31,844 nucleotides of DNA from Phlegmacium glaucopus (Eukaryota > Basidiomycota > Agaricomycetes > Agaricales > Cortinariaceae), in the NCBI GenBank assembly GCA_015039465.1, contig MU130162.1, positions 1 through 31,844 of the forward strand, read 5' to 3'. Every line of letters begins with the position of its first letter. Within the stretch, counting starts at the first letter, position 1. Below, piece by piece: positions 1,427 to 19,520 of this stretch. The notes beneath the pieces are model-generated. The model worked only from the letters and a program-made list of their open reading frames with translations. It was not told the origin of the DNA and made no database searches. Both the position numbers and the translations under genes were made by a program.

Positions 1427-4400
1427 CTACCTTACACGAGACGTCGAGGCTATTCCATCTGCCATGTCATATAGCACATCCTTATCACCACTGCCGTCCA
1501 CTAAAGACTTCAGGAAACCATCTGTCTTTTGGAGCAAAATTTTCGGACTGTCGAATTCAGCCTAGAGGAAGCTATCAGTGAAAATCCATGTTTCAATTTC
1601 GAAGATAACCCACAATCCGTCCATCATCAAGGACCATCTGAGCTTGGTGTTTAGTAAAAACGGAAAAGAAAAGTTACATTGACATACTATTCTGTCGGCA
1701 TCCATGATTGTCTGCAGTCGATGAGCAATGGTGATGATAGTAACATCTGAACTCATTTTGTGTCGCAAAGTAGTTTGTATGATGGAATCTGTCTTATAAT
1801 CTGAAATCATACGTTATAAAAAGGCCAAAGAGAAGCAATCATAATGGTCAAACACACCGATGGCAGAGGTTGCTTAAAAAAGAAAACTGGAGTCAACGTT
1901 CCGAAGTCCACAAAAGACCGCACAACCCACCTTCATCTAAAATCAGGAGCTTGCTTCCTCGAACAATTGCACGAGCCAAGGCAATGATCTGTCGCTGACC
2001 AACAGATAGGTTACCGCCACCACTAGCTATGTTGCTGTCCAAAGTTAGACGAGCTTCCTCAAGTTCTTCTTGGAGTGAAAACAGTCCCGCAGCACGCAAG
2101 GCATCATTCAAAGTAGCATCGTCATGTTGCTCGAACGGATCCAAATTACGCCGGAGTGTACCTACTCCACTTAATAAGCCAGAAGCGGTAAAATGCTTTT
2201 GATGAGTACGCACCACTTAAAAGTTCGGGCTTAGAGGAGAGGTTATATCAGTAATCAACGACAGTGCTCATCACACCCACTCACAGTTTGCGGAATGATG
2301 GTGATATTTGATCTCAATGCATCCAGATTGATTTGGTTGGTAGGAATTCCGTCATAGTATACCGTACCTTCTGTGAGTATACATCGCAATAAAGCGAGGG
2401 TCAATGAACTCTGTGAAACAAATGAGTTATGGCTGGAGTTGGGTGGAAAGTCAAACACTATACCTTTCCGCTGCCCGTCCTGCCCACTAGGTTTCACTAA
2501 ATTAGCCATAACGTTTTATGAACTGTGGAGACAAGACTTGCCAACTCCTATGCGTTGTCCTGACTGGATATGGAAGGAAATATTGTGAAGAACCGCTGGG
2601 CCTGTCTGAGAAGAATCGTGAGCTTCTGATTGTGCTTTCAACATGAGCCACACCTCTGAATAGCGAGCTGAAAGCTTTTCCACACGGAGATCGCCACTAG
2701 TAGGCCATGCAGCAGGGGGCTTCCCAGTCTCAGTCGCTTCTGGTTCATGTTCGATATCAATGTATCCTTGGATGCGCTCCAGACTACACGGGATGATGTT
2801 AAAGTTGTTTATGCACCATAAATCGTGATGCTTCTCACCTGTTGCCTTGCACTTCAAACTCGTTGAAATATCTAACCCACCACAAGATCATAGTGCAAAA
2901 TTCAACGACCATATTCAATGAGAATCCGGTATTACCAGCTCCAACCGAACGGCCGTAAACTAGATAAGAAGCTAGTGCAGCAGTGAAAATAGCCCCCAAG
3001 ACGTCGATTCTTACACCAATCCATCGATTCAGATTGTAGGACATTCGGGCAACTCGGACATAGTGATTTATTCGTTCCAGAGACTCGGTTTTGAAAGGAA
3101 CCTGGGCACCATAAGCGCGAATCGAGACTTTTTCGCATTAATAGTATGTTTAAGTTAAGAAGTAGACGAACGTTACCTATACCCACAATTGCTGCGCTAA
3201 AATGAGCCAGTAGCGGGGAACGTGCATTGCTGGATAACAGATGTAAATGATATATCAATGATAACTAGTGTTTGCCTACCTCATCTCGCGTTTGACGGAT
3301 AATTGGGCTCGCAGATAGAGATTACCCAGACAGGCACCCAAAATTGCGACCGCCATTCCAGGGAACAAGAATATTGGGGTGAAGATGACGATAACAGCAA
3401 GTTTAGTGAGCATCGTTGTCCCAATTTCATTCAGCGTCGCAACTACATCGGGTATAGGACCGTCGACAGCGCGTATATCCTGTGTACATCGAGCAATTAT
3501 CCTTCCTGTCGGCGTCTCATCCAGCCATCTAAGAGATGTCCTGAGTTCTTCAGTGATTAGCTAAACCCCTTCGAACTCACCGAAGTGTGCTTCCCAAGAC
3601 CGAACTAACCAATGAAGCGCTGATACTCCTGGATGCCCTGAGAGTTCCATAGACATAGAAGATAGATGACGCAGTGTAAATGACAACCATTGTAAAGAGA
3701 ATAAGAGAATATTGCGTGAGGTAACTGATTTTGGGCAAGTCATCAATTATGGGCCGAATAGATGAAAGAAAGAGCCTTACGGCAATGGATTGACCTCAGG
3801 GGACGTGTGGGTTTCGTACTGAGACCCCCAATATCCAAGGAACCAGACTTGGAAAGTGTCCACCCAATCTGTTAGGAGTGTAACAGAAATCCAGATCGAA
3901 AAGAAGATAAGAGGATAGTCTCCTCCTAACCCAGAAAGGTATAGTTTCATAGATTTCCATGTAACATGTCCTTCTGCAATTTCTTCTGCAATCACGAGCT
4001 TTCCATCTGTAGGCTTGTCCCTTTTGATTGTAGGCTTGACTTCTTCAGTGACTGTCCCCAGAACTTGATCTACTTCTGATACTGGAGAGAGGTCATTGGC
4101 TAAAGTAGAAGCGAAGTGTTCGATCCCTTGACTTCGTACAGTACCATCTTGACCAATCGACACCACATGTTGAGCAATGGGCGTAGCAAGGGCGACATTA
4201 TGCGTCTTTCAGGAGACGTTGTCAACCAGAGAATTTTCCCAAAAGAATTGTTTATTTCTTACCACGAGCAAAATCGTTCTTCCCTTCACTAAATCGCCTC
4301 GCAAACACCGGTCAATGATCCAGGACGACCTAATCGCCAGCCTGGTTCAGCACAAAAAAACACAGGGAATGGATAGCACGTACGTGTGCACATCCAGGGC

Positions 4401-7400
4401 AGCGAGAATGTCGTCAAGCAGAAGTATCTCGGCCGACGAATAGATGGCTCTTGCCAGAGTGACTCTAGCCTATCAAAAAGATAAAACAGTGCTCGCAAGA
4501 GCGCTTTGAGGCGTCTCACCTTCTGCCCTCCGCTAGTACGAAGATATCAAAAGACTGTCCAAGAGATCTTGGATGATGGCTAACCTTAACGTAAGTCCTC
4601 GTTCGCCAACTTCTGTCTTATCACCAGCGTCAAATAGCTCCAGATCACGTTCCAAAGCGCACTGGTGGAGGACTTGAAAAGTTTGGCTCAGGGGAAGTAA
4701 CAAGAGTCAAAACGAGCATGTTTCCTACCTTTGCGGTATCGAACTTCATCATACGCAGAACCGAACAAGATGTTATCGCGGATTGTTTCGTTCTGAACCC
4801 ATGATTCTTGTGCAGCATATGCCACACCTCCTTTCCTGGGGAGATTGAACCATGCATCAGCGGTTGATGGAATGAAGTGCATCTCTCCTATCCATTATCG
4901 ACTATTAACTGTAATAAGGTTGAAAAAACATCATCCGAACTCACCAAGTAAAGCCATCAGCATAGACGTTTTCCCCGATCCACTGCAAATGATTACAATT
5001 CATATTAGTTATGTATAAAACACGAAAACTCACGTAGGTCCGATGATCAGATTGATACAATTACGTTTGAACAATTGCTCGCCACTGATATGCAGCCGGA
5101 ACATCCGGTTGGATGGCGTTGAAGTACCACTAGGGGATTCAACAGACCAGGAGAATGTGGCGTTGTTGAATCCAATCTCGTCTTCATACTGAGTTGTGGT
5201 TGGGATATCAACCATATTCGGCTTATCTGCGAACGAGTCCAACAATTCTGTATTCTGCAGAAAGTCGGTCATACGATCTAATGAGACTTTGCCTGAACAG
5301 CAAGCGTGAGCGAAAGATCAAACGCAACCGATCAGGGCACACCTTGAATCGTAGTGAGGACTTGATTTGACAAGCGGTATAACTGCATCCTCAACAAAGA
5401 AAACACCGTCATAGTAGAGAAGATCTTGGAAGCTGGATATATAGTCCTTTTAGCAGTAATTTTGCATTGCTATGTTTGACATACCAGCAAGCTCTTGTTT
5501 CATAATGACAGTATAGGTGGCGTAGGTGACCAACATAACAATGGTAGGGATGATGTGGCTGTAAAACATTGAGTTCTTCCTCCTAAATAAACGATAGCGC
5601 AATCGGCGACGCTCACTTTGCGATCCCACCCAATGTCTCTAATACCTAGCATATGATATCAAAGACAGGCAGATTGAAGGAAATGTTATTCTGCCAACCT
5701 TAAGCTTCCATAACCAACCAAGTTCATCATTTCGCTTCTCCCTAATCCTCTCCGACATACTACGTTCCCACCCGAAAAGCTTGATCATTCGTATAACATT
5801 GACGGCTGCGAATATAAAAACTCATCCGTCTGAGATCATGATTGCGTGCAATATACCTTCTGTAACATCTTGTACTCGGGCGTCCGTCTTGAATTTCAAC
5901 AGAAAGTCAGGTGGGATGAGGAAGAGAAACACCAAATGTGACAGTACCATTTTCATCCTCTGAATTTGTGCATCTTGAACCTTTTTGGCGATATATCCGG
6001 GTATCGGAAACATGACGAACATGGTAGTGAGACCAACGAAGGCGCTTTAATATGAGAAAAGTGAGATTACTCTTTCAATTCAGAATACGAAGGCAAGCCG
6101 ACCTCCATCCAAGTACTTGATACAAGAACACGGTGCACAGAACCAGTTGAAGTGGGACATTTAAGACTAGCTGGAGTATCAGACAATAATTCTAAACTCG
6201 AACAAAAGGACTGAAGCGCACTGATGAAGAGGAAGTCCCGTGCTTGAACAATATTGCCTAAATCTGTGGTGACTAGATTGTTGATTTTACCGATGAGATT
6301 TTGTGCGCCCTTTGTGCTCTTGCTTGCTTGCTTAGCGTCACTCTTGAGAGTCGATGAGTCGTCCTTATCCTTTCCCTTCACACCAGCCTTTGAGGTGGAT
6401 TGAGAGTCACTGGAGGAATCCAGAGATACGGCCGTCGAAGCTTGGGAAGGTTCGCTGGCTCTTTCATCCGAATTTGAATCGATGGCTTTGCCCTCAGCGA
6501 CGGATGCGCTATCTGGCGTTCCAACGACAGTAACATTATCTTCTTCAATCTTTTCATTTGAAGCTTCAGCCTTTAAACGAATCCGTAAGCTATGTTCGAA
6601 GACTAGCTGTGTGAGCAATCCCTCTGTGCGAACCAACGTCCTCGTTGCAATGAAGATATACCACTGGAAGCATATATTTCTGATAAGCGGCCCAACAAGA
6701 AGCCATAAGATCCAGAACCATGGCCGAATACGAGCACCTGCGCCACCGGTTTCCAGGTAACTGGAGGTAATAATGAATAAGGAATCGTTTACACAAATTA
6801 TAATAACTGACTTCAGTAGCCTATTTATGCCGATCGGTGAAGCAAAGATGGCACTGGTTTGTCCAATGAGACACAACGAAAGGATCGTATACTCCACGCC
6901 TGCCATCAAGACGTGTAATTATTGGTTATGAAATTTGCTAGCACTCGAACTCACGAAAAACGCGCATTAAACCAAAGAACAAGTGTCTCCGTTTAGCACC
7001 ACAGTAAGGATCTAGATGCTATACATCAAACTCAGCATGTGTTTTGGTTGTGTCAAAGATAAATATAATACCGGAAAGGCGTTCTTAGTGATATGTTTGG
7101 AATAATCCGAATCTGAAAGAGGAGGAAGTTGATCGAATCGCAAATGTGGAACACGATAGCCTAGCATGATAACCGGATCCAGATATGTATAAAACACCAA
7201 AGCAAAAAGTGAGCACGTCTGTTCTGGATTTGGTTCTGGCATTGGATCCTATGTATTCAGAAATAGGTCAGCGCCTGGAAATAACATTGACCGAATGGAT
7301 TAATGAACCTTTGGATTAACTGGCACATATCGACGAGGAATAAATAGTGGGATGACCACGGCCGTCAACGTAACGATACTCAATTTGATCCAAAGCATGT

Positions 7401-8127
7401 AACCTTCCTGCAGATCTTTCGGTTCCTCTGTGAATGTAGCAAGGGGCCAGATATCTCTGTAGAGGTAAACTCCAAACACGCTTAACAAAACCAGGATATT
7501 GTATCGCGTCGCTGAGACACTCCAGTCCTTTATGGTAATGGATACTATTGCCATCATAGAGGAATAGAACTAGAATTGTTTATGACTTCAGGTATTGCAA
7601 AACAAACGAACAGAAGGGGATTCACGAATGTCACAGTCATAAGAACCTCCGGACAACCGACGAAGAGATGCTCAAAAAGTGTGCCGACTATGTTTGAATG
7701 ATTCCTCTGGCACTTTAGCAAGGAGTTCACAGAAAGAGCGAAAAGGACGAGACATCCAAATAAACGTGCCACCATGAACGAGTAGATCGTCCATCCACCG
7801 TGACTTTTCACCTTCTTCTTTACTGAATGAGAAAATGTGGAAGCCGTTACATCAACCAAAGGCTCAGTCTCAAGGACGGAACCAGGCTGCCGGAAGGTGT
7901 TGATCCAATACAGGAGTATGTGGATAGTTTGAAGGAAGAGACAGATACATGAAATCGCGAAGGACACAGACCAGGAATCAGATGGAAAGCTAATGAGAGA
8001 AATGAAATGAGAGTCTATATGTGAGAAACGTCGTGTAGAATACTTGCTTCAATTTCAGCCCTTTCGCTCTAATCTGCGCATTTAGCACGAAATTTATTGC
8101 GTTGTATTCCCTCCAGGTATCTATCAT
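1427..8127 (-). CDS. ABC transporter, ABCC/MRP type, 36 exons
   Basis: Full-length ABC exporter of the ABCC (MRP/bile-pigment) class, expected to move conjugates or drugs across the vacuolar or plasma membrane using ATP. Exons, minus order: 8127-8048, 7989-7626, 7569-7309, 7248-7072, 7018-6955, 6899-6812, 6760-6222, 6166-6103, 6044-5948, 5887-5857, 5805-5699, 5645-5617, 5582-5485, 5432-5343, 5292-5034, 4982-4945, 4887-4729, 4672-4585, 4532-4520, 4469-4384, 4329-4263, 4205-3781, 3724-3581, 3528-3280, 3229-3177, 3127-2839, 2783-2654, 2605-2542, 2486-2464, 2410-2285, 2229-2214, 2161-1931, 1872-1858, 1800-1688, 1637-1614, 1561-1427. They total 4836 nt (1611 aa plus stop). NBD1: GPTGSGKTS near 780, LSGGQK near 878, LLLDD near 900 (Asp where the catalytic Glu usually sits, common in ABCC NBD1), then LVTHN. 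NBD2: GRTGSGKSS near 1385, NLSVGQRQ near 1494, LLILDEATSAID near 1515, TIAHRL near 1548. Membrane helices precede NBD1 and lie between the NBDs. A Ser/Lys-rich insert lies in the first membrane domain (exon 6760-6222), recalling the Ybt1/Vmr1 subgroup. The ATG at 8127 is the first after an in-frame TGA. Confidence 0.9.
2487..2541 (-). other. GC-AG intron inside the NBD2 Walker A coding region
   Basis: The exon ending at 2542 stops after GTTG and the intron begins GCAAGT, the usual donor of GC-AG introns. It ends CCTAG at 2487. Joining at GC restores the expected [10 protein letters not shown] reading, whereas the GT donors nearby break the frame. Length is 55 nt, like its neighbours. Confidence 0.8.
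7990..8047 (-). other. first intron of the transporter gene, probable GC-AG
   Basis: Exon 1 (8127-8048) ends in phase 2 before GCAAGT, the same six-base donor as the NBD2 GC intron. The acceptor is CATTAG and the length is 58 nt. The overlapping GT donor (GTATTC) would put exon 2 out of frame. It rests on exon 1 being correct, which is less certain than the rest of the gene. Confidence 0.55.
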
Positions 8128-9763
8128 TGAGACAGGTATGGGCTGTCAAATGGGATCTCGCAAGTCGACAACACTCTGGTTGAGTTTTGAGCCTGTACTG
8201 ACGATGTGGGAGAAGAAGAGAAAAGTTTAACGTGGTTACTCGGTGAGGTTCCTTTATTTAAGTCGGTATCGGTCAAAATGATCCGCTGTTCGTGAAACGA
8301 TGCGCAGGCCGTGGTCGTCGCATACAACTGCTAATGATTCAAACACCTTCTCAAATTTTACTGCATACTGCTGCAAGTACTTCTTGCGCCCGTGTGCCTG
8401 CCTAGATCCACTTGAATCCAATTTCTTCGCTCACATCGTCAGAAAACAAATGTACTCACAGAGAAGATGGCCAAATCCAATTTCGCAGCGACCGTGCGCT
8501 GGGAATTCTTAATTTGTTATTCCACATGGTCCGATAAGGATTGATGGTCATGGATTCACTGAGTCATAGAGAGTCAGGGGCTGTCAGGGGTCCTTTTAGG
8601 TCCCGTTACCGCTCTATTGTAGTCTGTTTACAGGAAAACTCGGTGTGCGTTGCCTATGCGACATGTCGTTGTATCGGTAGGCAAAATGTACATAAGCATC
8701 AACGTATAGAGCTATTAAGAACAGATGACCAACGTCAGAAGGCGCACGTTTTGGATCTGAGAGAGGAGTCAAGATTAATTGGCCAACGATAATCAAGTTC
8801 CAGTGATGGGGACAAGTTGAGATGAGGCAGTGGTACTACTAAGTAAGACTCCAGGTGACCTTCATAAGAAGCTGGCAGAAGCGTCTATTCAGACCATAAA
8901 GATAACCTCCTTTAAATGGAAACACGTTTAGACAGGGCAGGGACGAGGAGGGTTTCATCATGATAATTAAGTGCTACATATATGTAAGTATAGGTATATA
9001 CGTATGCCCATATGCGTATGCATCATCTCAATAACAAAAAGAAGGGAGAACTAGAACATAAAAACAGGAACAGGAATAGAAAAGAAAAACGGAAAGAGAA
9101 AGAAAAAAGAAAAAAATACAAGGACAGAACGGCGGTATAATCGTTTGATCAAGGAGAGCCTATGCTCGCTTGCTCCTTTGCTCGTTCGCCGGTGGTGCAT
9201 CAAGCCATATGCAAATGGAAGAAAGGGAAGGCATTTATGGGAAGGCAGACTGTTTATGTGTATTCGTATGTGGAGTGGAACGGATGGTTCGTGAGACATC
9301 AAGAGGCGGGAGGAAAGGCGGTAAGGAGAGACGCAGAGAAGGGCGTGCAAGAATCTCTGGAACAAATATTTTGAAAAAGGTATGCATTGGCTGAGAGGAA
9401 CGGGTACAGAGGAAGAACAGAAAGAAATGAAAAAGAGAAATTGATAAATAGCGTGAATTGAGAGGCAAGGAACAGAAAATGAAAATGAAAAAAAAGGAGA
9501 AAGTCATGCAGACAGTTCACAATTTTTTTTATCAATAGAGTCCAAGAACCCAAAGAAAATAGGCACCGGTAAACTCAAACACAAGAAAAGGTAGAGTCCG
9601 GACGACTTCTGTCAAGCAAGTCATCAGCCGGAGGGGGAGAGAAACAGAGCATAAGTGACGAGGGGGAGAGAGGGCAAACGCACAAAACGCTGAACAGGGA
9701 AAAAAAAAACAAGGCTTCCCAACACCCAGTCAACCAACCAGCCCTCGCACAAGAGAAAATTCA
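8128..9763. other. intergenic region with a long purine-rich tract
   Basis: Lies between the start of the transporter gene and the stop of the next minus-strand gene, so it holds the transporter promoter and the neighbour's 3' UTR. From about 9030 to 9720 the plus strand is strongly purine-rich (GAA, GGA and AAAAG runs, with only short pyrimidine breaks), so the transcript of the upstream gene would carry a CU-rich 3' region. The ORFs here are low-complexity shadows of that bias. Short TATG/ATAC alternations occur near 8975-9025. I see no gene. Confidence 0.6.
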
Positions 9764-12700
9764 TTAATGAGGCCAAATATCAGTGACCGTTCGCCTTCGT
9801 TCACGTCGATTAGCAGGTCCTGGGTGTTGTAAAAACGTAGAGGCGGCGCTCCTGTCAGCTGCATGGGTATCCCATAACATCCTTCGACTCCCACCACCAC
9901 CGCCACCACCGCCAGAGGTGCTTGAAACGCCAGCGCCAGGATTACCTCCCAAATCCACTGCCCCCGCGCCACCAGCAGCATCTGAAAAACCACCACGATA
10001 ATCCTCATCATAGGTCGTCTGCTCAACAAGTCCATCCAAAGACATCCTCGCACTTCTCATATTACCAACCGTTCGTCTCTTGGCTTCCCTCTCTCCCCCC
10101 CTCTCTTTTTCCTTCTCCCGTTCCCGTTCACCGGCACTAACACCTGCACTCGACTCCCCACCTCCACTCCTAAACTGCATCTGCAGCCCCGTCAAGGCAG
10201 CAGTCACCGAAACACTGGCACTTTCCGAAGGTCTCGAAAAAGTAACTTGTGAACGATCCGATCTCCCCGAAGCAGTTCTAAGTAATGGAAACGCAGACGC
10301 TGAACCGGACCCAGAGGAACTGGAGATATGGCCGCTGGAATGAGAGCTAGAGTTTGAGACGGTGTGTGGTGTGAGGGCGGTTGTGGCATTGCTTGGTGTG
10401 GTGAGAGATGGGAATGAGGGAAGGCTACCTCTGATAGTGGATCTGCGGTCTCGACTTGTTGTAGTAATGGAAGTAGAAGAAGGCGCGGGAATACGTTCGG
10501 CATTGTTATTTGTAGACTGTCGTCTCCCAAGCGTTTCAGAAGGTAAGGTCGGTAATGGTTTCGGAATATTCAATGGCGGAAGCATTCGTGTTCTTTCCCG
10601 TTCTTGAGTATTAAGCACACCACCTCGAGTCCGCGAGGCAGGTGTAGGCGACGGTTCATGACTTCGAGGCAAGTCATGTAGAGGTTGAACCGTTTCTTGA
10701 GAATCGTGCGTCGGGATCCCGCCCCCACGACCAGGAGAAAACTTGGCATCCAACATCTGTTCACGCTGTTCTCTAGGTGTAAACAACTTCCTTGCAGGAT
10801 CAGTTCGATCTCCAAGTGCAGGAAGTGATTTCCTAATACTGGCTTGTCTGAAATGTTGTGACTGCTGATGTGAAGGAGGCGTCTCATACTGCAACTCCCG
10901 ATCTCCAGACCTCAAATTCTGATACGTAGCAGGCGACGCTCTAGTTAGCACACTTTCCGATCTTTGTCCACCTGCTCCCGCGCCGCCGGAACCAGAAGAA
11001 ACGCCAGCACCAGCGATCCTATCCCGCTCTCCAGGCTCCCAACTATTCCTCGACGAGGCACTCCGTCTACCGCTTCCCGCGCTCCCCACATCCGGACTAA
11101 CACCTCCCCTCCTCAATCTCAACCCCTCATCGGCAGCAGCATCAAGACTCGCATGTTTTCCACGCACCGAAGGCGATCCTCCTCCTGGATAGTCCGCCAA
11201 CAAGGAAGAAGAGGATAGAGAAGGACCAATATCTCTCATAACTCTTCCAATACCTAATAAAAACCCCGTCATCCCTCTAACCAGTTCATCTGCAACTCTG
11301 GAGTTTTCCCTATACTCAGCGGCAACTCTATTCCATATATTGCCGATTTCTTGAGTATCGCGTCCAGTTCTGCTACTGCCGCTGCTTCCTTCCACCTCAG
11401 CTTCTACTTGTTCTTCAACAGCCCGACCATTCCCCTGCTTCAAGAGCCCACTAAGCCGTTCGGCAGCGTACACCATACTTTGTGCGTTCTTTGCCAACTC
11501 GGTTTGCGATGCACCCGTCCCTGCGCTACCGCTACCAACGGCTTTCCCAAGAGGTAGCCTATTCAACTGAGTTTCGAACATGGTCAAACTCTCCAACATC
11601 AATTTGATATGTTCAGTTTGATTTGATGAACTACCACCCGGGGTTTGGGAATTAAGTCGGCGAGTACCGAATGGACTTGCGGTTGATATTCGTTCATGCA
11701 TATGGTGTGGTGTGGCTAGTAGAGGAACGGGGGAAGGTGTATGAGCATGGCTGTTGTGGTTGTAGCGACTGAGTGATGATCCAGCCCGATCCATCGGCAT
11801 TGAATCTCGTTCGCGTTCTCTCTTCGCCGAGGAAGCTTCAACTCTCGCCAACGAACTCTCTCGATCCCTTGATGAAAATTGACGAGTGGATCGATCAGAA
11901 TCGCGATATCGCTTGTCCAGATCGTCTTCTTTGTCCAGATATCGATAATCAGCCATTGACGTAGCAGCTCTCGGGGGATGTCGTCTCTCCCTTTCTGGCA
12001 ACACACTCTTCCGCTCCTCATCCTGAGGACTCCAATCCACTCTCCTGTCACTCCGTTCCTCTTCCCTCCTCCTACTCAACCCAGCAGCTCTCAACCCCTC
12101 TCCAATCAAACTCCTACCACCAGGACTTAACAAAGCACTCTCTGCACTACCCCCACGCATTGTTTGTCGCCTTTCCCTTTTTGGATTGCCATCTTCGTTT
12201 GAATGTGATGTGTTGTATTGGCGATCACGAACAGTTGCTGGTGGCCTGAAACCGTCTACCGACCATCGAGGATTTGGCCCACCACTACGTCGGTAATCGC
12301 GGACAGTGGAAGGTCTGCTGCCTCTGAATGGGGTTACAGGTTCTGCAGGTTGCTGTATAGGCAAATGAGTAACTAGGGGACGGAAAAAAGTCAAATATAT
12401 GCGCTTACCTTCCAACTTGCTCGCCCAAGATCTACATCTACACTCGCCCTTTGTGTATCATTACCGGCCACGCTCCTCCTACCCGTACTAGGACCTGCCG
12501 GGGTTGGACTATCATCAACTAAATCTGATCTAAATTCTTTGGGTAGAGCCGCTCTCCGTCTAGAACCCAGGGGGCTCCTTCTTGAAGAAGCGACAGCTGC
12601 CAAGGCACTTTGAGCGATTAAATCTCGTTCGTTGAGAGTTCTATCAAGTGTTCGATTCCTGGCTGTCCCCGTGGCTGTTTGTGGTCCATCGTTGTCTTCT

Positions 12701-13545
12701 TCCTCATCGAAATCTGCAAGTTGTAGAGTTGACATTGAAGCTCTTTTCCGCCGCCTACTGTGACTTGAATTTGAGGATGATATTGATGTAGGAGCGGAGA
12801 TACGGCGTGGGCGGTTGTATTCTGAGGATTCATGAGAGAGATTGACTGAGGAGAGAGAAGGGGAGGGTTGATGGTGTGATGAAGATGATTCACGTTCTGT
12901 TTCCGAGCCTGAGCGGGGCGGAGAGGGTCGATGAGAATGAGGGGACGGCGAGCTGATACGGGATAGCTTGTGTAGAGCCTTTGATGAGAAGTCGAGCAAG
13001 TAGGACACCATGATGGTTAAGAGTATAATAAAATAAAATAATAAAATAAGTCTTACCATTCGATTCCGCTCTGCTAAATTCTTCACTCTTTGCAACGCCA
13101 TCACATTCTCATTCAATCTTGCTGTGTCATCGTTGCTATCGTTGTCGTTATCGTTCTCTTTATCATAATCGTCGTCAACTCCGGTGTCACTCTCATTAAA
13201 ACTTCGTTTCATCGGCGTTGACACGGTTCCACTACTCGTGCTGTTGCTGCTGCTGCTGTGATGCGACAGAGGTCGTTCTCGGAAGGCAATAGTCGCAGGG
13301 TCTCCAGTACTTCCGCTGCCAGTAGAGTTCGTCGCAGGTGGTGAGGGTAATCCAGATTGAACAGATCCAATGCTAGAACTAGGACTAGGAGGTTCCGGAA
13401 GGTCAGGTAGCCCAGGAGGCGTACCCTCCGTGTGGGATGACAGGGATGATGCCGGCTGTGATACGTTGGAATTGGCGCCTTTACCAAGGTATATCGCGGA
13501 TACAGGTCTATTTTGCTTCACCTTGAGTACTGGCCGAGGGGGCAT
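9764..13545 (-). CDS. Ser/Arg-rich low-complexity protein of unknown function, three exons
   Basis: Three exons in phase 0 (13545-13057, 12978-12409, 12352-9764) give 1215 residues plus stop. I do not recognise the family. Residues 1-120 are Pro/Ser-rich, followed by an acidic Asp/Asn run. A short predicted helix reads LNENVMALQRVKNLAERNRM, with exon 2 continuing ALHKLSRISSP, and may be a coiled coil. Exon 2 is Ser-rich with basic patches. A second likely helical domain lies around residues 597-730 (LMLESLTMFETQL, then AAERLSGLLKQ and WNRVAAEYRENSRVADELVRG). The C-terminal half is Ser/Gly/Arg-rich and ends DIWPH, with a poly-Gly run near residue 1175. The composition suggests a cytoskeletal, septum or spindle-pole scaffold, but that is a guess. 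The Met at 12415 lies within intron 2 and the end of exon 2 and is not the start. Confidence 0.8.
12979..13056 (-). other. 78-nt intron with open frame encoding a hydrophobic segment
   Basis: Donor GTAAGA, branch-like CTTAAC, acceptor TCAAAG. The intron is a multiple of three, has no in-frame stop, and if retained would insert 26 residues of which about 20 are strongly hydrophobic (LILLFYFIILLTIMVSYLL). Removing it joins a continuous helical stretch, so splicing is the default reading. Confidence 0.6.
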
Positions 13546-14261
13546 TGATATCGTTCCAGTACCACCGGTCGTCCAGTTACACGAATGGTCTTTCTTCTTT
13601 CGTTTGGGTTGCTAGCCTTGAAAGAAACGGAAATGTTGACAGAAAACAAAGGATATAAAAGATTGTTGAGTATATGGTAAATAGCAAGGGTAGAAAATCA
13701 TGAAAGTTGGGCTGCTCGTCGACCGCAGCGACGGCAAAGGCGGTTTCAACAATGTCGGAGGCAAGGGGGATAATTTATTAAGTAACCCTTATTTGGTGAT
13801 CTCAAAAATAATAATAATTTCTTCCAACATTTATGATTTAACCATTCTTCGAAAGCAAAAGAATCATGCATGATGACTGACGAATGCAGTTTCAATTTAT
13901 CGTACATTATATCAACATATGCGAGTCTGCCTAATCTTGTTACTTCGTCTTGAGTTCGATGATAATCCTCCTGCAAAGCGGGCTGCGGAATGCCATTTAT
14001 CGGATATCCTCGTCATTCAACAGAGCTGCGTAACTTATACTATGTAATGCATTCCATGAAATTTCGAATTCTTACTTATCTTTGTGGAATCATTTGCTGA
14101 ACAGCAAATTAAAAAGAGATCGGGGATGGCTAAAGAGAAATAAAATCTCATTAATTAGATCTCATTATTTAACTTATCATGTCACAGAACGTGATGCCTG
14201 CGTCGCTACACACCATTCAGAATCAGATCCTCCTCAGCGCTATATAAACCACTTCCTTAGC
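13546..14261. promoter_or_regulatory. region between divergently transcribed genes
   Basis: It separates the minus-strand Ser/Arg-rich gene (start 13545) from the plus-strand codon-exon gene (start 14262), so both promoters should lie here. A TATATAAA box is at 14241-14248, only 13 bp before the chosen ATG. If that box is functional, transcription would begin at or after this ATG, or the real promoter is elsewhere. The frame is open upstream to an ATG at 14082. The 76-codon minus frame at 13746-13976 has no recognised motif. Confidence 0.45.
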
Positions 14262-17200
14262 ATGGATCGCTTGTTGTCCAGCAAACCTGTGAGCAACCAA
14301 CCGCTCGCCAATACAAACTATTTGCTTGAAGGCCCTCAGTCTCAGTCACCATCATCATATAGCGCCTTCTTTCCTAACGCAAGTGGTTTTAGCCTCAACC
14401 GAAGTACATTCGCTGTCGTTCATGGAAATATGAACCTTCACGCTAGTGAACATCCATCTCACGTACGTAAGGTCGAGTTGACTACAGCCCGAAAACTGAA
14501 TACATTCAAGTGGAACAAGTACCGATGGGTCGACTTCGATCAGCAAACACTGCAACTTCTACGTACCAGTTCCACGGGCCTTGTGACCATGGAGATGGAA
14601 CCAATGGCATTGACCTCGCGTGTTAAAATGTATCGTATCCATTGGTACAAGGATAGGAAAGATACCTTTCACAATCATCTGGAGTTTGCCAATTCACCGT
14701 GCGTTTTGTTGCCTTGCCATACCATTCCAAGTTTCTGACACATACTGTAAAGACTGGCTCGTCAGCTAGATATATCCCAGTTCCTCGGAACTTCTATTGA
14801 TAATGAGGATGGTGATCGATTTGTTGTCCTTTCTGGTGGTATGAGTGTAGCCTTATAAATATATCTTATGTGTCCCTCACATTGCATTTCTGCAGGTGGT
14901 TTGTCTCTGTCAAATGTTTTCAACGGAAGTCACACAGACTTAGATATAATAAAGATAGCCTCTGTATGTTCTGACTGATTGATTTTCTGCCATCCTTTCA
15001 TGATGTTAACTGACCATTGGCAATTGCAGTTCTTTCAGTTAATGGTGAGCATTTATATTGATATATATCTGAAGGGGAAAAAAAAACCTGGGAAATTGTA
15101 GGACATATTCAGCACAAGCCCCTTCACTGTGTTACACTGGAGTTGGTCAAAACTTTGGGATCTACCCATATTTTCTTCAAATTATGGACTTCTTGTGGAT
15201 GTTATTCTCCTTGAATCATATGGCTTACTAACAAGTTCCAAAGGGGGTAGGAAGAGGGTAATATATAATCACTGAGCAACATAAAACTATGAAATGTGTA
15301 CTAACTTGTTCATCATAGGGCCCAAATATTGTAAATTTCCATGCAAGACTACAAGATCAAATATGTGAGTGGTGTGGCCTTCATCAAAGAAGTAGAAAGA
15401 GTCTCACTGTGGTTTGTGATGCAGCACCTGGTGATATGGAAAGAATATTGCATTTCAAGCCAGACATGGTCATCTTAAGAGAGACTGTTAGAAAAAGCCT
15501 CAAGGTGGCAAGAAAAATAGTCAGTAACTAAAATCAATCCTGGCTGCCATCCCTAACTAACAAAAATGACCTCTCTACATTGCAGTATGTGAGTGCTCTC
15601 TCTCCTGGTTGTCATCCCTAGCTGACAACAATGGCATCTCTTCATTGCAGTGGGTGAGTCCTCTCTCTCCTAGCTGTATTCCTAGCTGACAACAATGATG
15701 TCTCTTTGCATTTCAGGATGTGAGTACTCTCTCCTGGCTATCATCCCTAGCTGACAACAATGACTTCTCCCTGCATTGCAGCAGGTGAATGCTCTCTCTC
15801 CTGGCTGTCATCCCTACCTGACAACAATGATATCTCTCTGCATTGCAGTTAGTGAGTGCTCTCTCTTCTGGTTGTCATCCTTAGCTGACAACAATGATGT
15901 CTCTCTGCACTGCAGTATGTGAGCACTCTCTCTCCTGGCTGTCATCCATAGTTGACAACAATGATGTCTCTCTGCATTGCAGTGGGTGGGTGCTCTGTCT
16001 CCTGGCTGTCATCCCTAGCTGACAATGATGATGTTTCTCTGTATTGCAGTATGTGAGTGCTCTGTCTCCTGCTGTCATCCCTAGCTGACAACAATGATGT
16101 CTTTCTGCATTGCAGTTAGTGAGTGCTCTCTCTTCTGGTTGTCATCCCTAGCTGACAACAATGATGTTCTCTCTGTATTTCAGGATGTGAGTACTCTCTA
16201 AGTCTCTCCTGGCTATCATCCCTAGCTGATAACAATGGCATCTTTCTGCATTGCAGTTGGTGAGTGCTCTCTCTTCTGGCTGTCATCCCTAGCTGATAGT
16301 ATGGTGTCTCTCTGTATTGCAGCTTGTGAGTGCTCTCTCCTGGCTGTCATCCTTAACTGACAACAATGATGTCTCTCTGTGTTGCAGTGGGTGAGTGCTC
16401 TCTCTCCTGGCTGTCATCCTTAGCTGACAACAATAACCTCTCTCTGCATTACAGAATGTGAGTGCTCTCTCCTCCCTGTCATCCCTAGCTGACAACAATG
16501 ACCCCTCTCTGCATTGCAGGATGTGAGTGCTCTCTCTCCTGGCTGCCATCTCTAGCTGACAACAATGACCTTTCTCTGCATTGCAGGAGGTGAGTGCTCT
16601 CTCTCCTCCTGGCTGTTGTCCCCTGACATAACAATGGTGTTTTCTCTGCATTGCAGGATGTGAGTGCTGTCTCTCCTGGCTATCATCCCTAGCTGATAAC
16701 AATGATGTCTCTCTGCATTGCAGCATGTGAGTGCTCTCTCCTGGTTGTCATCCCTAGCTGACAACATGTCTCTCTCTACATTGCAGCTTGTGAGTGCTCT
16801 CTCTCCTGGCTGTCATCCCTAGCTAACAATAATGATGTTCTCTCTGCATTGCAGTTTGTAAGTGCTCTCTCTCCTGGCTGTCATCCCTAGCTGATGACAA
16901 TGATGTTCTCTCTGCATTACAGTTTGTGAGTGCTCTCTCTCCTGACTGTCATCCTTAGCCAAAAATGACCTCTCTCTGCATTGCAGGATGTGAGTGCTCC
17001 CTCTCCTCCCTGTCATCCCTAGCTGACAACAATGACCTCTTTTTGCATTGCAGTGGGTGAGTGCTCATTCTTGGTTGTCATTCCCAGCTGACAACAATGC
17101 CCTCTGCATTACAGGATGTGAGTACTCTCTCTCCTGGTTGCCATCCCTATCATTGAGCTACTTTGATACTAAATGCTACTAACCAGGCTCTCAACACATC

Positions 17201-18062
17201 TAGAATTGAAGAACTCAGTGATGGTCAGTTTGTCTGTTTATTTATTTTCCTGGTTTGATTATCATAGGGTCATTCAGATGCAATGCATGTGGATTCTGTG
17301 AGTACTTCCTCTTGGCTGTCATCTTTACCTGACTATAACAACCTCATAGGATGTAGGTTTTCTCTGACCTGGCTGTCATCCTTAGCTTTTCTCTGACCTG
17401 GCTGTCATCCTTAGCTGACAATAATATCCTCTTTCCATATTGCAGTTTGTCTGTGCCTCTCCCTATCATTATATTATGTTTCTATGCTTAATGTTACTAA
17501 TTAGTTTTCAAACAACTCAACATCTAGGATTGAAGAACTTAGTGATGGTGAGTCTGTCTATTCATGATATCTCCATTTTGTGATTATAATATAACATTCA
17601 GATGCAATGCATGTAGATTATGTGAGTGCTCCTGCCTGGCTGTCATTTATAGCTGACAATATCTCTCTGTATCACAGCTTGTGAGTGTGCTATCTGCTGG
17701 ATGTTATTCCTAGCTGACAGCACTGACTTCTGTCTGCATCACAGGATGTAAGTGTTCTCTAACCTGACTGTTATCCTTATCTGACAACAATGTCCTCTTT
17801 CCACATTGCAGTCTGTGAGTCCCTTTCTCTATCATTATACTACAGTATACTTTTATGCTTAAGACTATTATTATTAATCAGGCTTCAAACAACTCAACAT
17901 CTGGAATGCAAGAACTCAGTGATGGTGAGTGTGTCTATTCATGATATCTTCTTTTTGTGATTATGATACTGTTATCCAGATGAAATGCATGTGGATTCCT
18001 GCTCTAGCAAGGGACTTTTTAATGTTGGGAGTTCAGAGAGATGCCAGAACATAGACCATTAG
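14262..18062 (+). CDS. codon-exon gene: 41-exon model with 29 three-base exons
   Basis: Ordinary exons: 14262-14698, 14753-14838, 14896-14963, 15030-15044, 15102-15257, 15319-15519. Three-base exons start at 15586, 15651, 15717, 15782, 15849, 15916, 15983, 16050, 16116, 16184, 16257, 16323, 16388, 16455, 16520, 16587, 16657, 16724, 16787, 16855, 16923, 16987, 17054 and 17115. Then 17187-17223, 17278-17297, 17350-17352, 17446-17448, 17505-17547, 17602-17621, 17678-17680, 17745-17747, 17812-17814, 17882-17924 and 17980-18062 (TAG). Total 1296 nt, 431 aa. Residues 1-146 include FFPNASGFSLN and FAVVHGNMN, a pattern I recall near the N-terminus of agaricomycete-specific kinase-like or NLR-like proteins. 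Residues 147-321 match no family I know. Residues 322-345 come one per exon, and 346-431 come from three module copies plus five single codons. No signal peptide or membrane segment is evident. Start and exon 4 (15030 or 15039) are uncertain. A chain skipping the 24 array codons is also in frame. Confidence 0.65.
15520..17186 (+). repeat. tandem array of intron units separated by single codons
   Basis: Twenty-five consecutive intron-like units, mostly 60-67 bp (range 58-70). Each starts GTGAGT or a close variant (GTCAGT, GTGAAT, GTGAGC, GTGGGT, GTAAGT). The body is pyrimidine-rich with CTGGCTGTCATCCCTAG, and most have CTGAC about 30 nt before the end (CTAAC or CTGAT in some). They end in a pyrimidine stretch plus TTGCAG, TTTCAG or TTACAG. 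Between each AG and the next GT lie exactly three bases, 24 times in a row. The first unit (15520-15585) aligns with the others although its donor side is diverged. It opens exactly at the end of exon 6 in phase 0. The last unit (17118-17186) has a different 3' half leading into the module exon. Confidence 0.95.
17187..17996 (+). repeat. three copies of a two-exon module alternating with codon exons
   Basis: Module copies: 17187-17297, 17505-17621 and 17882-17996. Each has a 37- or 43-nt exon ending in a codon run reading IEELSD or MQELSD, a phase-1 intron of 54-55 nt, and a 20-nt exon reading AMHVD plus one residue (EMHVD in copy 3, where it opens the terminal exon). Two single-codon exons lie between copies 1 and 2 and three between copies 2 and 3. 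Exon sequence and intron sequence both match between copies, so the module plus flanking codon exons was duplicated as DNA. Confidence 0.85.
17358..17415 (+). repeat. 29-bp duplication inside an array-type intron
   Basis: 17358-17386 and 17387-17415 are identical 29-base blocks (TTTTCTCTGACCTGGCTG and onward). They enlarge the intron 17353-17445 to 93 nt, the longest of its type, without creating a second acceptor. Confidence 0.9.
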
Positions 18063-19520
18063 ATTCAGAATTCTACACCTTCTGAAATTTCCACCATGCA
18101 GTGACTATGAGTTCTACCTGGTTCTGGGGGCTGATGCTCTGCATGGCAGTACTAGTCTTACTAATTTTTATTTTTATTTGTAAATTTCTGCCTGTGATAT
18201 ATTTGTGTGTGGTCAGTGTTTTTGTGGTTGTTTTGGTATTTTTAGAACTGTTGAAGCTAGATAAAAACCTTGAAATTTGTGCTAAAGTCAGTCTACAGAG
18301 CTGAAAAATGTGTTCTTTCCACCCACTTGAATAACACAACTTTAACAGTTTTGCTGTAGCTACAACAGTTCCAAAAATACTAAAAATAAATTCCACAATC
18401 TTGGTGCTTGCCTTGAAAATTGGATGAATTTCCACTTCAAATTCCACCCTTAGCAAAAATTCCCACCACTTCAGTCCATTAGATACTAGTACACTTTGCT
18501 TCAAATCAATTACTGGTATCACCAATGTAAATGTTGAGAATACACACATCATATAGTATGAACTTTCAAAGCTCTCAATGAAATAATGACCAAAATTGGA
18601 GCTTCTGCCAAAGGTCAAAAATTTCACAAAATTTCACAGGGAACATCATTGGTGCCAGCTATCTAGCATGCTATATATAACTTAGCTGTCCTTCCATTGT
18701 ACTGATACAACCTAGTCTTCAGGCCCTGTGATGCATGACCTTCATGAAGAGATAGGCAACTCTTCAAAAGTGCCTGGGATACATGACATTCTGAAAATCT
18801 CTTGTCTTCATGCTGATTTCATTGACACTCCTGTTAGGTATAATGAAGACCCCAAAAAATCTTTCTAAATTTCTTACAAGTTTGAAGCAAATATTATGGT
18901 GGTCAGGCACACTATACTTTCTGTCCTGTCAAATGTTTATACCTACTGGATCACAGTTGCTAGAGTGGTGAGAATTAAAAGGATGGAAATTAATCAGAGT
19001 CACTGAGCTACATGACATCCTCTAGTCATAATACTCATGTCTTCTCAGATCTTTTTAACTCTGCAGCCACTTGATAGGTGGGAAACAGGTTCTACCTTAT
19101 TTTCTATTCTATTTTTATTTTAAACCCAACCAGCCTCTACTCATTATTAGATGCAATCATTTTACTGATGGGATGTGCTTGTTATCTCTTGGGTTGCTGG
19201 TGATATGATTTAAATCTGCATAAGCATGGTTTTTGCAATTGTTATCGATTATTTCAGCATAAATATTAATTAATGCACCAATAACTTGTTAATACAGCTG
19301 ATGATTAAAGAAGGGAATTAGAGTTGTCTACCCTACAACTACTGATTAAACCTATTACTGTGTGACTTAAATGCATATAGTTAACAACTATGGTCAAGGG
19401 ACTATTATTTGTTATGCTACAAATTGCATGTCTGGATTAAAACCAATAAATGCATGATTATCCTTATAAACTTGGCACAGGAAAAGTTAAATAAATATAT
19501 TGGGGTTAACAAATGTCATG
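18063..19520. other. AT-rich region downstream of the codon-exon gene
   Basis: Begins with the 3' UTR of the codon-exon gene. A 184-codon minus frame at 18073-18627 overlaps a stretch with recurring AAATTTC and AATTCCAC motifs. It is Ser/Thr/Lys-rich without recognisable motifs, so I treat it as chance or a decayed element. Between 18660 and 19520 I see only AT-rich sequence with no splice-consistent frame. Confidence 0.5.

Follow-up and report, generated by a model that had tools for sequence, protein, structure and literature searches.

An intron-like array within a predicted gene

The window analyzed here is the whole stretch of 31,844 nucleotides (nt) of contig MU130162.1 (positions 1 to 31,844, forward strand) from the basidiomycete Phlegmacium (Cortinarius) glaucopus, an agaric of the family Cortinariaceae (assembly GCA_015039465.1). 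On its plus strand a gene was modeled that would consist of 43 exons, 29 of one codon each, and encode 395 residues (Table 1). The center of this gene, from 15520 to 17186, was read directly and parsed as 25 intron-like units in tandem, between which lie 24 spacers of 3 nt each. The first donor of the array is GTCAGT at 15520, the spacers span 15586 to 17117, and the final intron occupies 17118 to 17186. Intron lengths range from 58 to 70 nt, with all three classes modulo 3 represented, and both edges of the array are in phase 0 (upstream exon end at 15519, downstream exon start at 17187). A preliminary description of this DNA had claimed 25 tandem units with spacers of exactly 3 nt, introns varying by non-multiples of three and phase 0 at both ends, and each of these features was confirmed.

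Tandem Repeats Finder (TRF) reported the array as a 67-bp repeat with 24.3 copies and 80% matches. When both strands of the window were scanned for chains of at least three members, with spacer lengths of 1 to 12 allowed, only spacer length 3 on the plus strand was obtained, with 24 members at 15586 to 17117 and 3 at 17678 to 17814. The peptide predicted from the 24 codons, whose start positions are running sums of the parsed intron lengths, is YWDQLYWYLDLLWNDEDHLFFDWD. Between the array and the end of the model at 18062, a module occurs three times (for example, as STSRIEELSDDAMHVDS), in alternation with another five predicted one-codon exons. The modeled introns outside the array are 47 to 73 nt long, with a single exception of 93 nt.

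Seven paralogous copies

Seven paralogous copies with arrays were found on six contigs (the window copy W, C17, C41, C93a, C93b, C209, and C241), and the seven arrays hold 24, 31, 32, 25, 28, 22, and 19 spacers. With a parser that admitted spacers of 3 or 6 nt only, 180 of the 181 spacers were 3 nt long and one was 6 nt; none was a stop codon. The parser reached 58 to 73 nt short of the first C-terminal exon in six copies and, in C241, the point at which the copy breaks off. After splicing, exons 1 to 8 are open in all seven copies, and exon lengths differ by multiples of 3, whereas intron lengths do not; the mean dN/dS across the 21 paralogue pairs was 0.55. A CTRAY sequence lies 10 to 48 nt from the 3' end in 163/181 array introns (fraction in shuffles, 0.18), and retention of the intron would introduce an in-frame stop in 128/181. 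When 2 mismatches were allowed, the unit pattern occurred at 97 + 48 places, and among the matches listed, all are on the six contigs that carry the seven copies.

The order of units was not common to the paralogues: the ranks of best hits were not significantly positively correlated in any of the 21 pairs, which indicates that the arrays turn over. Adjacent units seem in places to have been duplicated together, for example, units 8-9 and 11-12 of C241. In C241 (locus L013 from about 4170), unrelated sequence replaces the 3' part right after the last array unit; one frame of this sequence had no Pfam match.

Arrays across the genome

The whole assembly was searched for three GTRAGT donors with 44 to 72 bases, AG, and k bases between them. 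At k = 3, 1,445 triples were found (93 in the reversed control); the counts were 0 (control 5) at k = 2, 29 (103) at k = 4, and 1 (4) at k = 5. All 29 triples at k = 4 represent one minisatellite type at two places, C203:153.6-155.1k and C249:10.0-11.2k. The window array is not an isolated case; it is one of many, and the earlier account had underestimated their extent. Of the k = 3 matches, 220 fall in the window and 12 other loci; on the assumption that these are representative, the number of array genes in the genome would be roughly 80.

Chains of one-codon spacers had 63 members in L015, 68 in L019, 25 in L018, 18 and 16 in L016, 5, 9, and 11 in L017, and 8, 15, and 8 in L020, and the arrays include four or more intron sequences with no relationship apparent by eye. 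Chains with spacers of length 1 in other loci (32 members) were rejected as an artefact of AGA spacers and the antisense strand. Among the matches listed, more arrays were noted on C87, C124, C60, C181, C219, and C176, some with other introns; in some of these, letter-identical introns are combined with varying three-base spacers.

Spacer length, stop codons, and splice-site words

If spacer length changed in the manner of intron length, the seven paralogues would be expected to contain 5.6 frame-breaking spacers, and the probability of finding none is about 0.004. A family-consensus search that allowed spacers of up to 40 nt, and that detects just the units nearest the consensus, gave 3 nt in 145/148 cases; the remaining spacers were 1, 4, and 6 nt long.

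Against the absence of stops in the paralogue spacers, 8.2 were expected, and only 1 of 20,000 permutations of the three positions contained none. Most of the expected stops would be TAG; because this codon also makes a second acceptor, the stops of the window family alone were not taken as proof; this doubt was removed by family B (L015, L018, and L019, adjoining GTPases; 149 spacers). In family B, one stop was observed versus 14.1 expected, a count as low as this occurred in 0 of 3,000 permutations, and NAG was not avoided (18 versus 18.9 expected). Family C had no stop in 28 spacers versus 4.0 expected (P = 0.0013), and families D and E were uninformative on stops.

Several words that could act as splice sites were rare in the spacers of the window family: GTN was seen 0 times versus 17.8 expected, NGT 6 versus 17.0, and NAG 2 versus 13.6. 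AGN was not rare (3 versus 2.8). Internal GT was also rare in family B (10 versus 29.3). The rarity of GTN, NGT, and NAG is what would be seen if ambiguous splice sites were removed, and it speaks for use of the predicted sites.

The lack of C at spacer position 3 had been considered as a sign of donor selection and was dropped, since the loss of CpG from the region would account for it. Positions 15001 to 19000 of the window contain zero CpG in 4 kb; from 1501 to 14500 the observed/expected ratio is 0.56 to 1.29 per 500 bp. Across the seven paralogues, CpG is kept in exons 1 to 4 and almost none occurs in exons 5 to 8. This loss suggests that the array half of the gene has long been methylated at CpG sites.

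Variation is centered on the codons

Ranked by entropy, the 67 columns of the window family (173 units) were led by spacer positions 1 and 2. Nucleotide diversity (pi) was 0.64 and 0.69 at these positions, compared with an intron mean of 0.196; one intron column also reached 0.64. The kind of change differed as well, with 151 transversions and 40 transitions at positions 1 and 2 versus 449 and 825 in the introns (P = 2e-30); position 3 showed 39 transversions and 0 transitions. Among 25 disjoint closest unit pairs, introns differed by 0.083 and spacer positions 1, 2, and 3 by 0.40, 0.60, and 0.28; the three closest pairs overall have the same codon. Between paralogues, the divergence of introns 5' of the array is 13.4%, and thus the array introns are not unusually slow.

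A similar result was obtained in the other families. In family B, pi at the three spacer positions (0.69, 0.72, and 0.67) was above that of all 53 intron columns (maximum, 0.46), and in families C, D, and E, positions 1 and 2 exceeded every intron column. In family D (L017, L027, and L028), a consensus search that counted ungapped copies with at most 6 substitutions gave 59 intron copies, 50 of them identical to the consensus. The spacers of this family were 3 nt long in 51/53 cases, and one 4-nt and one 14-nt spacer were dropped. In these 51 units, 6/3,417 intron bases differed from the consensus, compared with 39/102 bases at spacer positions 1 and 2 (P = 2e-57), and the spacers differed in 733/1,035 unit pairs whose introns are letter-identical. 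An ordinary minisatellite has variation spread over the unit and free spacer length; here, the variation is centered on the spacer, whose length is nearly always 3. This variation may stem from selection acting on the codon, from targeted change, or from the two together.

Related proteins and public gene models

When the spliced upstream exons were used as a protein query, P. glaucopus proteins were returned, one of them 98% identical. Among the six public models found for the family, P0001 and P0002 (P. glaucopus) reach their stop within the first array intron (VSN), P0003 and P0004 leave the array out, and P0005 and P0006 terminate upstream of it.

Three other sequences are informative. P0009 (352 aa; contig of 1110 nt) and P0007 (336 aa; 1273 nt) span the upstream exons without introns, and P0010 (281 aa on a 1324-nt contig) is intron-free from exon 2 onward; all three are probably spliced transcript assemblies of related fungi. 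P0009, which is without part of exon 6, continues after the last N-terminal exon, near the array start, with KKDFEFDDELFDLDFFLDDFFFKEDELFDLDFFFG, a stretch composed of D, F, E, L, and K. This tail scored 24.1 bits towards the array composition, and the best of 1,880 control windows scored -1.0. In P0010, the N-terminal domain is followed by a 46-residue linker and then by STSKIEELSDDEMDIGS, a sequence similar to the C-terminal module; when the C-terminal portion of P0010 was used as a protein query, only P0010 itself was returned. The public model P0012 from Flammula alnicola ends with VVSH near the expected array donor, like VSN in P0001 and P0002, and an array may follow there too.

Weighing of the explanations

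We consider it very likely that the array lies inside the predicted 43-exon gene and that its 24 spacers are one-codon exons, joined by removing the 25 short introns singly. The donors, acceptors, branch-like sites, phase 0 edges, seven paralogues, near-invariant 3-nt spacers, lack of stops, and hypervariability of the spacers support this reading. The preliminary description had proposed tandem introns with one-codon exons; this is the best-supported reading given the paralogues, the genome-wide spacer lengths, and the stop avoidance, and the splicing itself is a prediction from the DNA.

Several observations weigh against it. Only W and C41 give fully regular gene models. The second module of C17 holds a stop, the last exon of C93b stops early, the C93a model requires one non-AG acceptor, and in C209 the last exon is not in its usual frame. 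The usual ATG is absent in C209 (GTG there) and in C241, where the start position was set by the analyst, and C241 is without the 3' part. No clear constraint is seen on the C-terminal modules, with a ratio of nonsynonymous to synonymous polymorphism (pN/pS) of 0.80 (95% range, 0.50 to 1.36), and the pN/pS of 2.99 for the window-family spacers is inflated, since no spacer ends in C. Spacer position 3 is no more variable than the introns in families C, D, and E. One stop occurs among the 68 spacers of L019, L017 contributes the 4-nt and the 14-nt spacer, the absence of TAG in the window family may equally reflect avoidance of a second acceptor, and the permutation tests assume independent units, although the units share a common descent. 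For the P0010 and P0007 linkers, the scores of -25.0 and -8.1 bits did not stand above the controls, being reached by 23% and 16% of control windows. The membership of the other arrays in the neighboring genes is judged from their position. Finally, the array codons are missing from all six public models (P0001 to P0006). Gene finders hardly permit 3-nt exons, and the public models are therefore weak evidence either way.

If the array is spliced as proposed, its introns (about 64 nt) would be removed by ordinary intron definition, one after another, each step adding one codon and leaving the next donor at the end of the lengthening upstream exon. Splicing would probably be sequential because simultaneous binding of splice sites with only 3 bases between them is hardly feasible. 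The resulting tail would connect an N-terminal domain of unknown fold with repeated acidic C-terminal modules such as STSRIEELSDDAMHVDS. From its composition, its variability, and the company of NOD-like receptor (NLR) genes that contain or neighbor arrays in Tuber and here, the tail is likely a fast-changing interaction surface. Growth of the array itself would come from tandem copying of units, each an intron plus a codon, with the codon diversifying afterwards.

Within this reading, a fixed tail is not required. All array boundaries are in phase 0, so any subset of codons would be in frame and one gene could yield many tails. Variable skipping, with a different codon subset in each mRNA and no single tail product, is a serious possibility, somewhat less likely than not. 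The introns are alike, and the microexons of the Tuber nank genes are reported as alternatively spliced in papers citing the original work (PMC4986451, PMC10197012, and PMC3689799). On the other side, the one long residue run in P0009 would indicate inclusion of many codons.

Outside the one-codon reading, the array might be an intronic minisatellite, removed as one long intron (15520 to 17186) so that exon 8 is joined directly to the C-terminal module. P0003 and P0004 skip the array in this way, and the outer junction is in phase 0 with an in-frame product. However, a 1.67-kb intron would far exceed the other modeled introns, and P0010 has its 46-residue linker near the 15519/17187 junction. 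The 3-nt spacers, the stop avoidance in family B, the rarity of GT and NAG, and the excess of spacer over intron variation would also remain unexplained. We regard this explanation as improbable.

Introner-like insertion of successive introns into an ordinary ancestral exon, with old codons and only the introns repeated, would account for alike introns and differing codons without selection. Nevertheless, unit order is not shared in any of the 21 paralogue pairs, some adjacent units look co-duplicated, and we know of no introners expected to insert every 3 bases in phase 0; this origin is quite improbable.

That the protein stops in the first array intron (...KIVSN), with everything downstream untranslated or dead, agrees with P0001 and P0002, with VSN or VST plus a stop there in 6/7 copies, and with the lack of clear constraint on the modules, but it is very improbable given that C209 does not stop there, that the downstream frames of W and C41 are open through to a stop, and that P0010 runs on into module-like sequence, which speaks against such an end in that relative.

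Organization of the predicted gene

The coordinates of the model are collected in Table 1.

Table 1. Predicted features of the array gene in the window
Feature	Position	Strand	Remark
Exon 1, predicted	14262..14462	+	ATG start at 14262; open spliced frame in paralogues; exon length differences multiples of 3
Exon 2, predicted	14511..14698	+	
Exon 3, predicted	14753..14838	+	
Exon 4, predicted	14896..14963	+	
Exon 5, predicted	15030..15044	+	15 nt
Exon 6, predicted	15102..15257	+	
Exon 7, predicted	15319..15364	+	
Exon 8, predicted	15425..15519	+	Phase 0 end before array
Array	15520..17186	+	25 intron-like units and 24 predicted one-codon exons
One-codon exons, predicted	15586 TAT, 15651 TGG, 15717 GAT, 15782 CAG, 15849 TTA, 15916 TAT	+	
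One-codon exons, predicted	15983 TGG, 16050 TAT, 16116 TTA, 16184 GAT, 16257 TTG, 16323 CTT	+	
One-codon exons, predicted	16388 TGG, 16455 AAT, 16520 GAT, 16587 GAG, 16657 GAT, 16724 CAT	+	
One-codon exons, predicted	16787 CTT, 16855 TTT, 16923 TTT, 16987 GAT, 17054 TGG, 17115 GAT	+	
C-terminal module 1, first exon	17187..17223	+	ALNTSRIEELSD
C-terminal module 1, second exon	17278..17297	+	DAMHVDS
One-codon exon GAT, predicted	17350..17352	+	
One-codon exon TTT, predicted	17446..17448	+	
C-terminal module 2, first exon	17505..17547	+	
C-terminal module 2, second exon	17602..17621	+	
One-codon exon CTT, predicted	17678..17680	+	Also in chain scan
One-codon exon GAT, predicted	17745..17747	+	Also in chain scan
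One-codon exon TCT, predicted	17812..17814	+	Also in chain scan
C-terminal module 3, first exon	17882..17924	+	
Last coding exon, predicted	17980..18062	+	Stop codon TAG

The N-terminal protein of the window had no match in Pfam at E <= 10, and Pfam and PDB sequence searches with the domain gave nothing beyond two chance-level matches (0.12 and 0.13). By Pfam, ankyrin repeats were found neither in this protein nor in the 10-member set A1, two members of which are full spliced models. A structure prediction for P0002 with 16 sequences had a mean predicted local distance difference test (pLDDT) score of 47.6, and Foldseek returned no PDB structure for it at E <= 0.001. The kinase-like look of the domain was a guess by eye that neither the structure prediction nor Foldseek confirmed.

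A 29-bp tandem duplication lies at 17354 to 17416, within the intron separating the one-codon exons GAT and TTT. On the minus strand, 5' of the array gene, two long open frames (883 and 384 aa) occupy 9764 to 13545; the 384-aa frame had one weak Pfam match, PBP1_TM at 0.0041, below the cut-off.

Genes beside the other arrays

A frame 5' of the L016 array matched NPHP3_N (2.8e-28) and NACHT (1.2e-4, under the curated cut-off), and on C16 a chain of 9 spacers, of the same array kind as L016, lies 3' of an NPHP3_N match containing a stop. Six other NPHP3_N matches were examined over 4.5 kb on their downstream side, and none had an array (0/6); thus, arrays are not general to NLRs. The NPHP3_N (NLR-type) repertoire itself appears very large, as 150/150 scored candidates matched, out of 317 candidates in all.

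Small GTPase exons lie 5' of the L018 and L019 arrays; a join made by eye matched MMR_HSR1 (2.1e-5). One unjoined exon of L018 matched Arf (3.4e-5), and the L019 exon was below the cut-offs. Exons resembling a small GTPase by eye were also seen at L015, L017, and L020.

A wider reading is that diversification proceeds codon by codon across the genome, in unrelated genes (NLRs, GTPases, and the orphan domain), with near-identical introns isolating hypervariable codons, so that a receptor-like repertoire is spliced from RNA. We put this forward tentatively, as a prospect falling just short of even. Under it, single codons could be swapped, added, lost, skipped, or preferentially mutated without breaking the frame.

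Comparison with known systems

The preliminary description had held that fungi offered no precedent, which was wrong. The nank genes of Tuber melanosporum have tens of codon-sized (3-bp) microexons (Iotti et al. 2012, Fungal Biol 116:261, as cited in PMC3689799, PMC4986451, and PMC10197012). As far as the citing papers relate, that system is likewise a fungal paralogous family with tens of 3-bp exons, proposed there to diversify a sensor protein. Tens of tandem one-codon exons are predicted in the sequences studied here as well, with 24 in the window, 19 to 32 in the paralogues, and 63 and 68 in L015 and L019, and the L016 array also lies 3' of an NPHP3/NACHT frame. In contrast, Tuber is an ascomycete and the cited accounts concern one NLR family, whereas the host here is a basidiomycete with several unrelated-looking introns. 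Moreover, the genes that contain or adjoin the arrays here encode three dissimilar kinds of protein (orphan domain, NPHP3/NACHT, and small GTPase), and by Pfam the window protein has neither a NACHT domain nor ankyrin repeats.

Other systems share single features. Introners and introner-like elements in fungi are many near-identical introns dispersed by insertion, often with target duplications; the near-identical introns are a likeness, but here they form head-to-tail arrays with three bases between copies. Aphid bicycle genes have many short exons, each longer than one codon, encode secreted products, and contain no array of near-identical introns; many short exons per gene are common to both, while one-codon exons and near-identical introns are particular to the present arrays. 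Schistosome micro-exon genes (MEGs) have symmetric tiny exons, mostly of 6 to 36 nt, that keep the frame on skipping; they are not tandem intron copies, and their products are secreted. The frame-keeping tiny exons are similar, but the window array consists of tandem copies of one intron. MEGs are mentioned in PMC11121469, which also gives a 20-nt microexon in Trichoderma. In the open literature searched for one-codon or 3-bp exons, tandem microexons, and fungal microexons, no other comparable report was found. What is new here is the basidiomycete host, the several types of host gene, and the codon hypervariability amid near-identical introns.

If the reading as one-codon exons is true, splicing handles dozens of successive 3-base exons, and the limits of exon size and intron definition are tested. 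Such genes are missed by gene finders, as illustrated by the six public family models without the array codons. The codon variation between letter-identical introns points to a diversification process acting on single residues. Given the NLR and the GTPases beside them, the arrays may serve as variable recognition parts when fungi sense non-self. That such arrays occur in two fungal phyla suggests either a repeated origin or an overlooked common strategy.

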